Assembly: GCA_016928575.1 (NCBI GenBank)
Contig: JAFGKK010000057.1
Span: 157,386 to 190,500 of the forward strand
Direction: 5' to 3'
Source of the DNA: Anaerolineales bacterium
Lineage (GTDB): Bacteria; Chloroflexota; Anaerolineae; Anaerolineales; RBG-16-64-43
DNA length: 33,115 nt
Made by a program: the position numbers and the translations under genes. This document shows positions 1,060 through 12,299 of this stretch, piece after piece. Below the pieces are notes generated by a model. It searched no databases and had not been told where the DNA came from. It saw nothing but the letters and a program-made list of their open reading frames with translations. Within the stretch, counting starts at the first letter, position 1. Every line of letters starts with the position of its first letter.

Positions 1060-1209
1060 AGGGCAGGGCGGATGAGAGGGAGGCCGATATCTATTTCTTT
1101 TTTTCCCAGCGCCTTGTGGACGGACCAACAATGCGGAAGCGCATTGCGGATATTTGAAAGAAGCCGGGCGGGAAAAAACCGGGGAAGTGGGTTACAATTT
1201 AAAGAAAGG

Positions 1210-1282
1210 CTCCTCGGCCAGGATTCGAACCTGGAACCAATCGGTTAACAGCCGATTGCTCTGCCGGTTGAGCTACCGAGGA
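1210..1282 (-). tRNA. trnN: tRNA-Asn (anticodon GTT)
   Basis: The 73-nt cloverleaf can be folded by eye. The acceptor stem is TCCTCGG/CCGAGGA, the D-arm has GCTC/GAGC, and the anticodon stem ATCGG/CCGAT encloses the loop CTGTTAA, giving anticodon GTT (plus-strand 1247-1249). The T-loop is TTCGAAT. The discriminator is G, and the 3' CCA is not encoded. A consensus promoter lies just upstream on the minus strand. Confidence 0.97.
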
Positions 1283-1292
1283 AAACCCGAAG

Positions 1293-1320
1293 ATTATACC
1301 AGCCGAACATCGAGTGTCAA
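1293..1320 (-). promoter_or_regulatory. Consensus sigma-70 promoter for tRNA-Asn
   Basis: On the minus strand TTGACA (plus 1315-1320) and TATAAT (plus 1293-1298) are separated by 16 bp. Initiation is predicted near 1286, 4 nt before the tRNA 5' end. The -35 box overlaps a GTG at 1314 on the plus strand, which argues that this GTG is not the start of the divergent kinase gene. Confidence 0.85.
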
Positions 1321-7599: not shown

Positions 7600-8781
7600 T
7601 CACTTGCCCGGAGGGGGAGGATCAACGGGCAGATCGAACATCAAGCTGGTGCCGCTTCCCTCTTTGCTTTTTATAGTGAGTTTCGATCCGTGCGCATCCA
7701 CGATCTGGCGGCTCAGATGTAGCCCGATGCCGGTTCCGCCGTGGCGGCGGGTCAACGACCGCTCCAATTGATGGAACGGCTCAAACAACTCATCCATCCG
7801 GGAGGCGGGGATTCCGATGCCGGTGTCCTCTACCGTGATCCAGACCCGATCGGAAGAGGTGCCGGTCCGGACGCTCACCCTCCCTCCCGAAGGCGTGAAT
7901 TTTATTCCGTTGTCGAGCGGTTGGGAAAGCACCCAGGTGATTTTCCGGCTGTCGGCCCGCACGTTCGGCAGCTCCGGCGGAAGGAAAACTTCGATGCGCA
8001 CGTTTCCTTTCTGGGCTTTCGCCGAAAGGCGCGCCAGCGCCTCCTGCAGGCAGGCCCGCAGGGAAACGGACTGCAAGTTGAGCGAGATCCCCCCGCGCGA
8101 AGAATCGGAGAATTGGATCAGGTCTTCGATCAGATCGGTCAAACGCTGAGATGCCTGGCGAAGCGTGGCCACCGCCGAGCGCTGCTGCTCGGACAGCGGT
8201 CCGAAGGTGTCGTCGGAAAGCAGGTCGATGTACCCCACGATATGGGTCATGGGCGTGCGCAATTCATGCGAAATGTTGGCGACGAAATCCGCCTTCAGTT
8301 GGCTGAGTTCTGAAAGCTTGTCGACGGCGCGGGACAGTTCGGCCGTCCGCTCCCGGACCCGTTCCTCCAATCGGCGGTTGGCCGATTGCAAAGCCCGTTG
8401 AAGCTGGAGGACCATGGCGGCCACCGATTGGTCCAGCGTCTCGCGGCTCAGAAAGCCCTTCTCCACCAGAACCTGTCCGATCCGGCGCGGCGGTTTCCCG
8501 GCTTTGACGTCGCGGGCCTGAGTCTGCAGCGCTTGTTGCAGCTGATCCGCGGTGATGACCTTCTGCGAAACCAAGCTTTCCCCCAGCCGGGGGACGAGTT
8601 CTTCGATGCTGATCGGCGCGGTGGGGGCAGTGTTCCGCGCTTCTTCCAGGTGGAGGCGGATCCAGAGGTCGGTATAGAGGATCAGATCGACATTGCATTC
8701 CGGGCAATGGGTTTGGTTTGCCGGGACCCCGGCGCCGCAATATGGACATTCCATCCGGACGGCCTTGGAAGGGGGCACCAT
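7600..8781 (-). CDS. Soluble sensor histidine kinase with N-terminal zinc ribbon and MshEN-like region
   Basis: This 393-aa protein has no transmembrane segment. A zinc ribbon lies at 12-29 (CPYCGAG...CPEC; Cys12, 15, 26, 29). Residues about 55-125 contain two copies of a short motif, LGESLVSQKVITADQLQQAL and IGQVLVEKGFLSRETLDQSV, like the N-terminal repeats of GspE/MshE ATPases. A coiled coil follows at about 125-160. The HisKA domain reads NISHELRTPMTHIVGYIDLL with phospho-acceptor His172. The HATPase_c domain has the N-box at Asn291, DTGIGIP and GGTGIGLHLSRQIV. ATG 8781 is preceded by GAGGAG; upstream frame extension is not supported. No response regulator lies next to it, so it is an orphan kinase. 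MshEN domains can bind cyclic-di-GMP, but whether this region does is unknown. Confidence 0.88.
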   Translation of the reverse strand: MVPPSKAVRMECPYCGAGVPANQTHCPECNVDLILYTDLWIRLHLEEARNTAPTAPISIEELVPRLGESLVSQKVITADQLQQALQTQARDVKAGKPPRRIGQVLVEKGFLSRETLDQSVAAMVLQLQRALQSANRRLEERVRERTAELSRAVDKLSELSQLKADFVANISHELRTPMTHIVGYIDLLSDDTFGPLSEQQRSAVATLRQASQRLTDLIEDLIQFSDSSRGGISLNLQSVSLRACLQEALARLSAKAQKGNVRIEVFLPPELPNVRADSRKITWVLSQPLDNGIKFTPSGGRVSVRTGTSSDRVWITVEDTGIGIPASRMDELFEPFHQLERSLTRRHGGTGIGLHLSRQIVDAHGSKLTIKSKEGSGTSLMFDLPVDPPPPGK

Positions 8782-8875
8782 GGGCCAGCTTTCTCCTCGC
8801 TTGCGGTCGATGATATAACCGATAAGTTTTTTCGGCAAGGCCGCGGGCTCTGGGAAAAATCGGCAAGCCCGCGCG

Positions 8876-8903
8876 TTGACACTCGCGGCGCACGGGGTAT
8901 AAT
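8876..8903 (+). promoter_or_regulatory. Consensus sigma-70 promoter for the 8958-10978 gene pair
   Basis: TTGACA (8876-8881) and TATAAT (8898-8903), both perfect consensus hexamers, are spaced by 16 bp. Initiation is predicted near 8910, giving a leader of about 48 nt. An inverted repeat (CGCGGGCT 8842-8849 / AGCCCGCG 8866-8873) ends 2 nt before the -35 box and could be an operator. Confidence 0.82.
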
Positions 8904-8957
8904 CGCCATGCCCGCGGCCGAGTCTGCGGGTCGAAATCCGCCGCATCTGAGGAACTT

Positions 8958-10547
8958 GTGGAATCGAAACTAGCAGCCCCCTCGCAACCGTGGGGCGAAG
9001 CCTTCACACTCACCGAAACCGACGTCGAGTTTGTCAATAATCTCCTTCTGGAAGAAGGCGCTCCAATGGAATCGGAGCGCTTGGCCGTCGCCGTCATCCG
9101 TGAGAGGCTACAAAACGACGCCAAACGCCGCGCCCGATTGAGTCCGGAGGATGTGATCTACCTTCCCCGCCTCGCGTACCGAGCGGGCCAGCAGTTGGTT
9201 TTTCCCCTCTTGGGTTTTTCCCGCGGGACGGTCGTGTCCATCCGGCCGGGGGAAAACCCGGAAGCCGGCGCCTTCGAAGTCATCCGCGTGAACGTGGACG
9301 GCGAAGAGCGCGAATTCGCATCCCGGCTGGAAAACCACGAACTCAACGCCATCCCGCTGGAAATCCTAATGGGGGGAAGCGAACAATCGCCCGAAGAAAT
9401 TCTCCGGGAACACGAAACCGTCATCCTGCCGCTGATCGAAGCCCGCCTGACGGAAACGGCGGACATCGCCAAAATCGCCGACCGCTGGTTTCCCCGCTCG
9501 CTGCTGGTGGAGATCTCTCACGGCCACCTGAACCTGGCGGAGGCGGTGCTCGACGTCGCCGGGGGCGGACCACTGCCGACGAGTGCGCTGTTGGAGCACC
9601 TCGAACTGCCGAGCAGCGTGGATCCGCGCCTGACCGCCTTTTCCCTGGAGCACGCGCTGTACCGGGATGAGCGCTTTGAGGAAGTCGGCCCCGCCGGCGA
9701 GATGGCTTGGTTCCTGCGCCGGTTGGAACCGCCGGAAGTCACCTTTCCGCCGCGGCGCCTGGCCTATGCGCCGGAGACTCCTGCGTCCGGCAAACTCCCC
9801 GAACAGATGCAGGCACTGGCGGCCGATCTGGAGGATGAGTGGAGTCCGGCGGCGGGCCCGGCCGGAGAGGTCGAAGAAGTCTCGCTGACCCTCACCTTCC
9901 CGCATTGGCGGGTTGGTACCCTGCCGCTTAACCCAAAGCTGGCATCGGTGTTCCCCCAAGCCCACCAAGCCACCCGGATCCGGTTCGATTTTGTGGACTC
10001 CGAATCCGGGGAACGGTTTCCCGGATGGGTGGTGACGCCGTTCCGCTTCGTGTTCGGATTGGCGGATTGGTATCCGAAAAAGGGGTTGCTCCCCGGCGGG
10101 TTGCTTCGTATCCGCAGGGGGGATCAACCCGGCGAGGTTGTATTGGATCCGGCGACCCGCCGACCGGCGCGGGAATGGATCCGCACCGCCACCGCCTCGC
10201 CCAACCACCGGCTGACCTTCACCATGCAGAAGCAGGCGGTTTCCGTCGAGTATGACGAATTGGCGGTGATCGCCGTCGACGACCTGCAAGCCGTGGACGA
10301 ACTCTGGCTGCGGATGAACGAGCAGAAAACGCCCTTGGAATCGCTGATCGCCGACGTTTTTCGCGAACTGGCAAAGTTGAATCCCCAAAGCACGGTCCAT
10401 GCGCGCACGCTTTACAACGCGGTCAATGTCGTGCGCCGGCTTCCGCCCCTGCCGGTGTTTGCGGAATTGATGCAGCGGACGTATTATTCCCACATGGGGG
10501 ATTTGTATTACCGGTTCGACGAGGTCAAATGGACCGAGACCCGCTAA
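8958..10547 (+). CDS. Protein of unknown function, winged-helix (HARE-HTH-like) segment suspected
   Basis: This 529-aa soluble protein has no signal peptide or membrane helix and I cannot assign it to a named family. Three parts can be described. The N-terminal ~130 residues include a beta-rich stretch (LVFPLLGFSRGTVVSIRP). Residues about 190-255 look like a small winged helix: LNLAEAVLDVAGGGPLPTSA, then DERFEEVGPAGEMAWFLRRL, a pattern resembling HARE-HTH and RNA polymerase delta-type domains. The C-terminal half is beta-rich, then helical (RFVFGLADWYPKKGLLPGG, LIADVFRELAKLNPQSTVHA). The start is GTG at 8958 with GAGGA 4 nt upstream. A consensus promoter drives it, which points to steady expression. 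It overlaps the next gene by 19 nt, so the two are very likely functional partners. A nucleic-acid-binding role is inference only. Confidence 0.85.
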   Translation: MESKLAAPSQPWGEAFTLTETDVEFVNNLLLEEGAPMESERLAVAVIRERLQNDAKRRARLSPEDVIYLPRLAYRAGQQLVFPLLGFSRGTVVSIRPGENPEAGAFEVIRVNVDGEEREFASRLENHELNAIPLEILMGGSEQSPEEILREHETVILPLIEARLTETADIAKIADRWFPRSLLVEISHGHLNLAEAVLDVAGGGPLPTSALLEHLELPSSVDPRLTAFSLEHALYRDERFEEVGPAGEMAWFLRRLEPPEVTFPPRRLAYAPETPASGKLPEQMQALAADLEDEWSPAAGPAGEVEEVSLTLTFPHWRVGTLPLNPKLASVFPQAHQATRIRFDFVDSESGERFPGWVVTPFRFVFGLADWYPKKGLLPGGLLRIRRGDQPGEVVLDPATRRPAREWIRTATASPNHRLTFTMQKQAVSVEYDELAVIAVDDLQAVDELWLRMNEQKTPLESLIADVFRELAKLNPQSTVHARTLYNAVNVVRRLPPLPVFAELMQRTYYSHMGDLYYRFDEVKWTETR

Positions 10548-10978
10548 GCGAATCCGGCGCTGGACGCCTGATCAAGCCAAGCCTTTCCACCCGGTTCCAC
10601 ATCGACCTCAATTGGTGGCGGCGCAACGAACGCGAGTGGCGGGTTTATCTGCTCAGCCACCTTTGCCCCGAGCACCGCAGCGCCCTGGAATCCGTCGCCG
10701 ACGGCTCCCGGATCGACTGGGTCGATCCGCATACGGCGGAGGTGCGTTCGATCGACGGCATCCAGCACGCTTTGATCACGCACTGCAGCCTTCAGCCGGA
10801 GTACATCTCCCCGAAGACCACGTTGGTCGACGCCGTCTTCCGCGTGTTCCTGGCCAATGGGAACACGCCGTTGACCGTATCCGAAATATCGGAAAAAATC
10901 GGACGCCCGGCGAATACCATTCTGCGAACCCTGTCCGGAGCCCGCGTGTACAAGGGGCTCCGGCCGGCGGACGGATAG
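10529..10978 (+). CDS. Small protein of unknown function with C-terminal HTH-like segment
   Basis: This 149-aa soluble protein overlaps the end of the preceding gene by 19 nt in a different frame, a sign of translational coupling. Its N-terminus is Trp/Arg-rich (HIDLNWWRRNEREWRVYLLS). The C-terminal part, TPLTVSEISEKIGRPANTIL followed by RTLSGARVYKGLRP, reads like a helix-turn-helix with a wing, again reminiscent of the HARE-HTH pattern suspected in the neighbour. Cys46 and Cys76 do not form a metal motif. I do not recognise a named family. The shared promoter and overlap suggest that it acts in a complex with the 529-aa protein, possibly on DNA or with RNA polymerase; this is inference. Confidence 0.82.
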   Translation: MDRDPLSESGAGRLIKPSLSTRFHIDLNWWRRNEREWRVYLLSHLCPEHRSALESVADGSRIDWVDPHTAEVRSIDGIQHALITHCSLQPEYISPKTTLVDAVFRVFLANGNTPLTVSEISEKIGRPANTILRTLSGARVYKGLRPADG

Positions 10979-11129
10979 GCAGGCAACCGCCCGCATTGTT
11001 CAGCGCGTAGATGCGGCTATTGCGGCGCCGATCCGTCCGCGTCGATTTTATGAGTAAAGGCCGCACGGTTGGCCTTCGATTCGCAAAATTCGCTTGACGC
11101 ACCGGAACAGAACGGGAAAGATGATAATA

Positions 11130-12299
11130 ATGAAGAGAATAAACTCGTTCGATCCAGGGGATTGCGGAGATTGCAGTGAACCTTCTGCCTGCAGCGGTGC
11201 CTGCGGGCGGGACGAGGGATGCGGCCAGGCTTGCCGCAACCCGTATCCACGGGGTTTGACTCGAAGAACGTTCTTGAAACTCGCGCTGGCGGCGGGCGGC
11301 ATGGCGGGGTGCAGGCCGGCGATAACGCAAACCCCAACCCCCGCCGAAACCGCCGCTCCGAAACCCTCCCGCACCCCCACAATCGCGCCGCGGTGGAACA
11401 AGGTGCGCGAGTTCACCGCTCCCAAGGGCATGAAATTCGCCGCTTTCCACGATGCAGATTTCGGCGTATTGTTGTTGACCGAAAACAAGGTTTGGAATAC
11501 AAGCGACATCCGGGTCACCGCCGACGGCGGAAAGACGCTGACCGTCGGAACCACCGAAGACGATTATTGCCGTTTCGGCGTGGATATCGTAGACCGCGAC
11601 ATCCTGTGGAATTGCGGGCGCGGGACGCCTTCCGGGGAAGGCATCGGCCACACGACTCCGACCGGATGGAAGCATGCCGTCAGTGTGAGTACCGACGGCG
11701 GACTGACCTGGGTCAACACAAGCCCGTTGGACGGCGAAGGTCCGCTGCATTTCGCGGGAGCGTCGAACCGGGGGGCGGGTTGGGCTTGCCATATTAGTTT
11801 TGTAGATGCGCAAACGGGTTGGGTGGCTTCCAGCCATCCCCAGCTGGCTGCCACCTCCGACGGGGGTGAGCATTGGGTTCCACTCTCCCTGCCGGAGAAT
11901 TTGCCGAATATCGCGGCGATGAATTGCCTGGACCGGGAAAACGGCTGCCTGCTCGATTTTCAGGGCTTTTTATATCAAACCGCCGATGCCGGAGCATCGT
12001 GGACCAGTCAAGAACTGGTCTTGTCGGAAGGGCAGTCGATGATTTCCATGGTTAATGCGCCGTTGCGGGTGGCCGCTGTCCGGTTCACCGATCCGGATCA
12101 CGGACTGGTGGCGGCAAGCCTGTCGGGCGGAGGCAAATCGCAAATGGCCGTTTACCGTACTACCGACGGCGGCCGGTCCTGGACCGTTGACTCCATACCC
12201 AAGCTGCTGGCCTTGCCGTATCTCAGCCGGGACGGCAAATTCCTCACGGCGGTGGATTTCATTAAAGGGGACAGACTTAGTTTGTGGACTTTCGCATAA
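11130..12299 (+). CDS. Tat-exported lipoprotein with YCF48/BNR-like beta-propeller and Cys-rich N-terminus
   Basis: This 389-aa protein has an unusual start. Six cysteines (12, 15, 21, 25, 31, 35) lie before a twin-arginine signal (LTRRTFLKLALAAGGMAGC, Arg45-Arg46) ending in a lipobox-like MAGC with Cys61. A Thr/Pro-rich spacer follows, then repeated blade motifs such as VTADGGKTL, VSTDGGLTW, ATSDGGEHW, QTADAGASW and TTDGGRSW. These are typical of BNR/Asp-box and YCF48 (photosystem II assembly-like) propellers. The mature protein is probably anchored on the outer face of the membrane. ATG 11130 is preferred over upstream TTG and ATG codons because GGGAAAG lies 9 nt before it. It seems monocistronic. 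No enzymatic function can be assigned. The Cys-rich n-region would be cut off if Cys61 is the lipidation site. Confidence 0.85.
   Translation: MKRINSFDPGDCGDCSEPSACSGACGRDEGCGQACRNPYPRGLTRRTFLKLALAAGGMAGCRPAITQTPTPAETAAPKPSRTPTIAPRWNKVREFTAPKGMKFAAFHDADFGVLLLTENKVWNTSDIRVTADGGKTLTVGTTEDDYCRFGVDIVDRDILWNCGRGTPSGEGIGHTTPTGWKHAVSVSTDGGLTWVNTSPLDGEGPLHFAGASNRGAGWACHISFVDAQTGWVASSHPQLAATSDGGEHWVPLSLPENLPNIAAMNCLDRENGCLLDFQGFLYQTADAGASWTSQELVLSEGQSMISMVNAPLRVAAVRFTDPDHGLVAASLSGGGKSQMAVYRTTDGGRSWTVDSIPKLLALPYLSRDGKFLTAVDFIKGDRLSLWTFA

Follow-up and report, generated by a model that had tools for sequence, protein, structure and literature searches.

In Bacillota the N-terminal domain of the delta subunit binds to RNA polymerase. 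A winged helix of the HARE-HTH type is said to be marked by an extra helix within the helix-turn-helix (PMC11037411). B3 domains are described as recognition domains of the restriction enzymes R.CglI and R.NgoAVII, in which they bind the recognition site (PMC4267653), and the plant B3 domains are said to derive from a restriction enzyme fold (PMC11685440).

Here we analyze two overlapping genes within a 33,115-nt stretch of DNA from an Anaerolineales bacterium (class Anaerolineae, phylum Chloroflexota), the whole of which is called the window in the following. The genes code for proteins of 529 and 149 residues, p529 and p149. In most cases the larger protein is predicted to contain a DNA-binding fold that is mainly familiar from transcription factors of plants and from some restriction enzymes, and the pair is a good candidate for an unstudied housekeeping DNA-binding complex. 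An initial annotation, made from the sequence alone, had described both proteins as containing a stretch that resembles a winged helix of the HARE-HTH / RNA polymerase delta kind. That wording missed a B3-like domain and an inserted SH3-like barrel in p529, a Cys/His quartet in p149 and the separate occurrence of the two families outside the class. We found nothing on the pair in the literature by title or by the start of the abstract, nor a paper which combines Chloroflexi with a B3 domain; most subscription papers lie outside these searches.

Results

Gene organization and promoter

The following elements are found at the locus.

8876..8903, + strand: sigma70-type promoter TTGACA-N16-TATAAT, both hexamers exact, 54 nt 5′ of the GTG of p529
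8949..8952, + strand: GAGG, likely ribosome-binding site of p529, just 5′ of the GTG in the sequence
8958..10547, + strand: p529 gene, open reading frame of 529 aa with GTG start
10521..10524: GAGG motif in the sequence just 5′ of the p149 start
10529..10978, + strand: p149 gene, open reading frame of 149 aa with ATG start

The two open reading frames overlap by 19 nt with the stop codon counted in; both frames, their overlap and the exact promoter sequence are all present as first annotated. The window contains two matches to TTGACA-N15..19-TATAAT against 0.01 expected, and the genome of 3.84 Mb contains 19 exact consensus sites (N16-18) against none in a backward control. The second site of the window is an exact TTGACA-N16-TATAAT at 1293-1320 (minus strand) and is directly followed by a tRNA-Asn(GTT) gene, promoter and gene together taking up 1208-1320 (minus strand). 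One of the other 17 exact-consensus promoters of the genome stands before a tRNA. Among the open reading frames behind the others are presumably those of the ribosomal proteins bL21 and bS21, and several appear to us to be regulators of the TetR, PadR and ArsR type.

A promoter of this type recurs upstream of p529 in other genomes of the class. Within 250 nt upstream, the best site has at least 10 of the 12 consensus bases in 41 of 69 p529 loci as compared to 39 of 1380 shuffled sequences (mononucleotide shuffles, which keep base composition only; a locus was included only if its upstream sequence was at least 250 nt long). The 69 loci represent about 62 genomes, seven of which are counted twice, and by genome the count is 37 of 62. 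The recurring strong promoter supports a constant expression of the pair as far as can be judged from the sequence, and the steady expression originally proposed is thus plausible.

Pfam over cut-off, NCBIfam and PADLOC are empty for p529 and p149, in line with the earlier statement that no family could be named. In PHROGs p529 has no match, whereas p149 has two weak ones (E 0.1-0.14). Searches of the PDB with the single sequences return nothing credible for either protein, nor do profile searches (best E 0.48). A match to GUN4 (E 0.022; 1 of 59 relatives) is far under the cut-off and was rejected as noise. No relatives of p529 were found in plasmids, in phages or in one scan of viral contigs with p529 as query, and Foldseek of the p529 model against a viral library gives a best E of 0.019 and no match at E ≤ 0.001.

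Conservation and pairing within the class

In the class p529 is present in 228 of 249 genomes (155 of the 162 good ones) and p149 in 229 of 249 (156 of 162). There is a single match per genome, except for two p529 matches each in genomes G028 and G052 and two p149 matches in G099. The genes adjoin in 127 of the 130 class genomes in which both places are known, namely in 106 of the 109 genomes common to both searches among the 150 matches listed per protein, and in all 21 further genomes, of which 20 were picked for a low p529 score and one (G043) because its p529 place was missing from the list. In one of the three exceptions (G087) p529 lies at a contig end. The other two, G089 and G113, belong to one genus and carry the genes on different contigs; in the two corresponding loci (L016 and L028) the 1.27-1.5 kb that follow p529 contain no p149.

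Over 68 loci, in which some genomes are included twice and the start codons were chosen by us, the distance between the two genes varies from -50 to +121 nt, and 20 of these pairs overlap. This short spacing and the adjacency across the Anaerolineae bear out the joint unit suggested by the initial annotation. We further compared the window with 40 loci of 14.9-19.5 kb, which we selected so that the contigs were long enough and many families were represented. In 41/41 the two genes lie side by side in the same orientation, and no other neighbor gene family is found in more than 9/41; clusters of frames antisense to the pair, such as cluster 2 with 38 genomes, were treated as shadows and set aside. 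Thus, the conserved unit is the pair itself and not a larger operon. One contig scan retrieved only a close relative of p529, an Anaerolineales MAG locus (L006, 77% identical). This kind of scan is insensitive, and absence outside the Chloroflexota does not follow from it.

Domain structure of p529

Only sequences free of X and not truncated at a contig end entered the alignments. The p529 alignment (A1) comprises the window and 58 of 99 listed stretches, with L093 and L094, which code for a form without the B3-like domain, left out as well; the p149 alignment (A2) comprises the window and 56 of 98 listed stretches. From the 59 sequences AlphaFold gives a model of p529 with a mean pLDDT of 91.5 and a pTM of 0.79, in which we distinguish the following parts.

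9012..9137, + strand: first half of wH1, a probable winged helix, residues 19-60 (AF2 helices 20-33 and 39-59)
9141..9377, + strand: SH3/KOW/Tudor-like barrel inserted in wH1, residues 62-140 (AF2 barrel about 66-126; Foldseek)
9390..9506, + strand: second half of wH1, residues 145-183 (AF2 helix 145-166, strands 170-179)
9510..9725, + strand: wH2, acidic winged helix, residues 185-256 (AF2, VIA, charge), holding DERFEEVGPAGEMAWFL
9867..10160, + strand: B3-like pseudobarrel, basic, putatively DNA-binding, residues 304-401 (AF2, VIA, profile-profile comparison, charge); further AF2 strands follow up to residue 430
10284..10544, + strand: wH3, C-terminal winged helix, residues 443-529 (AF2, VIA)

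The computed model is confident, and residues 304-401 are predicted to adopt a B3-like fold. The top 16 VIA rows of p529 are all plant B3 domains (Z 10.2-11.3), headed by ARF5 (Z 11.3, rmsd 2.4, 93 residues) and VAL1 (Z 11.2), and rows 17-21, with Z 8.3-9.9, are plant or restriction enzyme domains which align to this segment as well. By the confident model and these rows the segment has the B3 pseudobarrel fold. The fold is the same as in ARF1, ARF5, MpARF2, VAL1, FUS3, LEC2, NGA1 and TEM1 (rmsd 2.1-2.9 over 91-97 residues in the top 16 rows), and RAV1 follows lower (Z 8.7). The restriction enzymes LlaJI, BfiI, NgoAVII, EcoRII and UbaLAI have the same pseudobarrel with Z 6.2-9.9 (LlaJI 9.9, BfiI 8.3, NgoAVII 7.4, EcoRII 6.4); the LlaJI and EcoRII domains we take to be of the B3 type. 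Unlike these enzymes, p529 lacks a nuclease part, and its gene belongs to the core of the class. From plant B3 the domain differs in that it is bacterial, is only 12-20% identical in the top rows, is embedded between winged helices and is missed by Pfam B3. In the profile alignment the loop that corresponds to the C-arm of plant B3, as we assume it to be called, looks shorter than the plant one.

In profile-profile comparison the outcome depends on the sequences used. With class sequences alone the segment matches a profile built from six B3 domains of plants at 52% (other segments at most 2.1%), and with 79 sequences, including 20 relatives from outside the class, at 72%, in register over 75 columns (the four other segments 0.1-0.3%). 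The value falls to 14.6% when the 20 outside relatives are used alone. Foldseek gives this part a probability of 0.99 but an E of only 0.09, and Pfam B3 (PF02362, cut-off 30.1 bits) is over its cut-off in 0/100 class genomes, none of the 18 weak matches listed lying at a known p529 place.

The B3 segment is the only clearly basic part of p529 (median pI 9.6 and net charge +4 over 59 sequences) and has the conserved residues H316, R318, R340 and R402. The protein as a whole is acidic (pI 5.0; median 5.2 over the 59 sequences), with median values in the same sequences of 4.4 for wH2, 4.9 for the wH1-SH3 region and 6.5, near neutral, for wH3. This split in charge makes it likely that the B3-like domain contacts DNA and that the acidic modules contact proteins; for the domain itself DNA binding is suggested by its charge and its conservation. 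The SH3-like barrel holds several invariant residues as well (P70, R96, G98, V108 and H127); Foldseek aligns it to EF-P, MSL3 and Tudor rows with probabilities of 0.95-0.99 but E values of 0.2-0.3.

The winged helices of p529 are less specific. Their VIA matches (Z 6.2-7.8) lie in the common range of the aligner, for which Z 7-8 is the typical best value without a clear match. These are 2od5 (Z 7.8), the TFIIE chain 5fyw_X (Z 7.8) and RPOE 9a6y_A (Z 7.2) for wH2, FoxP3 (Z 6.3) and FoxP2 (Z 6.2) for wH3, and Egalitarian rows over residues 19-183 for wH1 (Z 6.8-6.9). Among themselves wH1, wH2 and wH3 reach 4.5-12.7% in profile-profile comparison, which is not significant.

The peptides originally pointed out do lie in modeled winged helices: DERFEEVGPAGEMAWFL covers residues 237-253 and lies in the wing of wH2, and PLTVSEISEKIGR covers residues 114-126 of p149 within a predicted helix-turn-helix. 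Each protein is thus predicted to have a winged helix where the initial annotation placed one, but the fold matches stay in the common range (wH2 Z ≤ 7.8, p149 Z ≤ 4.9). With RpoE and HARE-HTH, wH2 shares the winged-helix fold and its acidity. It differs in that the HARE-HTH family PF05066 (cut-off 25.9 bits) has no match in this genome at E ≤ 10 and that the wH2 model has no helix between 212 and 223, that is, no extra HARE helix in the helix-turn-helix. Of the PF05066 matches listed, a single one coincides with a p529 or p149 whose position is known, namely the p149 of G039 (E 0.049). The RNA polymerase delta structure is just one of many at similar Z. Membership of p529 or p149 in HARE-HTH is thus not supported.

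Domain structure of p149

The AlphaFold model of p149 has a pLDDT of 86.9 and a pTM of 0.78. Two features are assigned.

10664..10786, + strand: candidate zinc site, residues C46/H49/H85/C86 (co-conservation)
10811..10975, + strand: C-terminal winged helix, residues 95-149 (AF2), holding PLTVSEISEKIGR

Cys or His is found at all four positions 46, 49, 85 and 86 in 39 of 57 sequences, at three in 7, at one in 1 and at none in 10. The four residues are thus mostly present or absent together, as would be expected of a zinc site that some lineages have lost, and p149 probably binds zinc. The winged helix has sub-threshold Pfam HTH matches. The best VIA row of the p149 model has a Z of only 4.9, and Foldseek of the model against the PDB gives nothing under E 2. 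In profile-profile comparison p149 reaches 47% with wH2 of p529 and 35% with the wH1 region.

A form without the B3-like domain and relatives outside the class

In 13 class genomes p529 consists of the N-terminal half only, which ends at profile position 256-275 of 525 and has no B3 part. They come from five families (six genomes of f35, three of f39, one of f49, two of f51 and one of f53), in which the B3 half may have been lost, or it may have been gained elsewhere. Each has one p529 match, directly followed by p149 in 13/13. The B3-like domain is therefore dispensable there, the kept core being the acidic winged-helix/SH3 half together with p149, which hints that p149 works with this half of p529.

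Outside the class the two families part. In a sample of 251 genomes of the phylum, taken as the same sample for both searches and containing 31 matching genomes of the class in each, p149 relatives occur outside the class in 34 genomes and p529 relatives in 32, and the two sets are disjoint: no p529 relative was found in the outside genomes with p149. Thus, each family is independent and the pairing is a trait of the class.

The p529 relatives of another Chloroflexota lineage are encoded by frames of 545-957 aa. They are homologous over the wH2, B3-like and wH3 region (best E 1e-17 to 1e-32) but differ from p529 in that, in the loci inspected, the match to the profile begins only behind the SH3 part and that no p149 was found. 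A HEAT-repeat cluster lies downstream in 15/20 of these loci and is fused in one more, where a single open frame (L171:7478-10348, minus strand) encodes both the p529 relative and the HEAT-repeat protein, for which related loci have a gene of its own downstream. After the HEAT cluster follow PIG-L (12/20), FemAB (14/20) and Mur-ligase (12/20) clusters, and a ROK cluster lies upstream in 11/20, all five being named by Pfam on L163 and L171 only.

The p149 relatives occur in further Chloroflexota families and are homologous with E 6e-5 to 1e-24. A CxxC is present in 9 of 11 sequences inspected, with a later CC in 7 of those 9. Among 20 loci a yebC cluster lies upstream in 9 and ruvC in 5, both Pfam-confirmed in L151 only; the ruvC frames were clustered together with p149, and this count is tentative. 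Other neighbors, in different loci of the same set (L136-L155), are genes which we take to be macrodomain-like and signal-peptidase-like.

Discussion

The explanation that fits best, and which we put forward tentatively, is that the pair is a constitutive operon for a two-protein, housekeeping DNA-binding regulator or chromosome-associated complex which is core to the class. The two overlapping genes would be tightly coupled and transcribed constitutively to provide a p529-p149 complex. In it p529 could be a multi-domain scaffold which contacts DNA through the basic B3-like domain found in most of the class, whereas the acidic winged helices and the SH3-like barrel would mainly contact proteins, p149 among them. 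The small partner would be a probable zinc-site and winged-helix protein, and the complex a regulator or chromosome factor, neither an enzyme nor a defense system. Conservation, adjacency, promoter, the p529 model with its B3-like fold, charge distribution and the co-conserved Cys/His quartet are results of the computation; DNA binding, the p529-p149 contact, zinc binding and the regulatory role are what we infer. Against a DNA-binding complex speak the Foldseek E of 0.09 for B3, the blindness of Pfam B3 to p529, the 14.6% of the outside relatives alone, the acidity of p529 overall, the fact that p529 and p149 are never found in one genome outside the class, and the HEAT-repeat, PIG-L, FemAB and Mur-ligase neighbors in the other lineage, which do not point to transcription. 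The 13 genomes without the B3 part also lower the probability of this explanation.

A pair which is present in more than 90% of the sampled genomes of a very diverse class and has no name in Pfam or NCBIfam likely performs a basic task that the well-studied bacteria do otherwise. A more far-reaching proposal, which we regard as doubtful, is that it represents a housekeeping factor of bacterial transcription or of the chromosome which uses a B3 domain of the plant kind and is unrelated to restriction-modification, a lineage-specific component of basal DNA handling in the Chloroflexota and a possible bacterial cousin of the domain ancestral to plant B3.

The pair might instead be a factor associated with RNA polymerase, in line with the polymerase-binding complex considered in the initial annotation, with the acidic winged helices on the polymerase in the manner of the delta subunit and the B3-like domain, where present, as DNA anchor. 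The alignments of wH2 with RPOE (9a6y_A, Z 7.2) and TFIIE (5fyw_X, Z 7.8), its strong acidity, the constitutive promoter, and the fact that it is the acidic winged-helix half which stays with p149 in the 13 genomes would all fit. However, many unrelated winged helices score alike, PF05066 has no match in the genome, wH2 lacks the HARE helix, and no neighbor gene family exceeds 9/41 loci. We judge this alternative unlikely; polymerase binding is a possible sub-case of the constitutive complex.

Alternatively, the B3, SH3 and winged-helix modules may have been exapted for contacts to protein or RNA, with a role in the envelope or in translation and without DNA binding. This is made somewhat more probable by the 13 class genomes which keep the pair while the B3 part is missing, and it would agree with the p529 pI of about 5.0, the weak resemblance of the SH3 part to EF-P and the envelope-type neighbors in the other lineage. 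Yet the B3 part alone is basic and keeps H316, R318, R340 and R402, and the class loci have no neighbor family in more than 9/41. Such a role seems unlikely to us.

The tandem winged helices of p529 together with that of p149 could also be accessory subunits of an SMC-type chromosome organizer, presumably of the kind called KITE. The HEAT-repeat cluster directly downstream of the p529 relatives (15/20, and fused in L171) and a ScpB row among the weak p149 matches (2z99, Z 4.0) would favor this idea, but other winged helices score just as well as the ScpB rows. We rejected p149 as a ScpB substitute: a canonical ScpB is present in 37/41 class genomes and no replacement is needed. PF04079 (ScpB) does not match the pair, and its single match in the genome is on another contig (C45). 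We consider an SMC-accessory function improbable.

Finally, although the bacterial B3-type VIA rows are restriction enzymes and the recognition site of R.CglI and of R.NgoAVII is bound by their B3 domains (PMC4267653), an orphan restriction or modification-sensing system is very improbable and a defense role disfavored by the near-universal, single-copy distribution in the class, the lack of a nuclease or methyltransferase domain in either protein (Pfam) and of a PADLOC match, and the lack of p529 copies on plasmids and phages.

In the window the pair lies between a histidine kinase gene and a gene for a protein with BNR repeats. The kinase (7600-8946, minus strand) is divergently oriented and has HisKA and HATPase_c domains, preceded by weak zinc-ribbon and DUF4388-like stretches. 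The listed start of its frame overlaps the p529 promoter region, and its true start is thus probably further in. Downstream (11094-12299, plus strand) lies a YCF48/BNR-repeat (PSII_BNR) protein with a TAT-signal-like, Cys-rich N-terminus.
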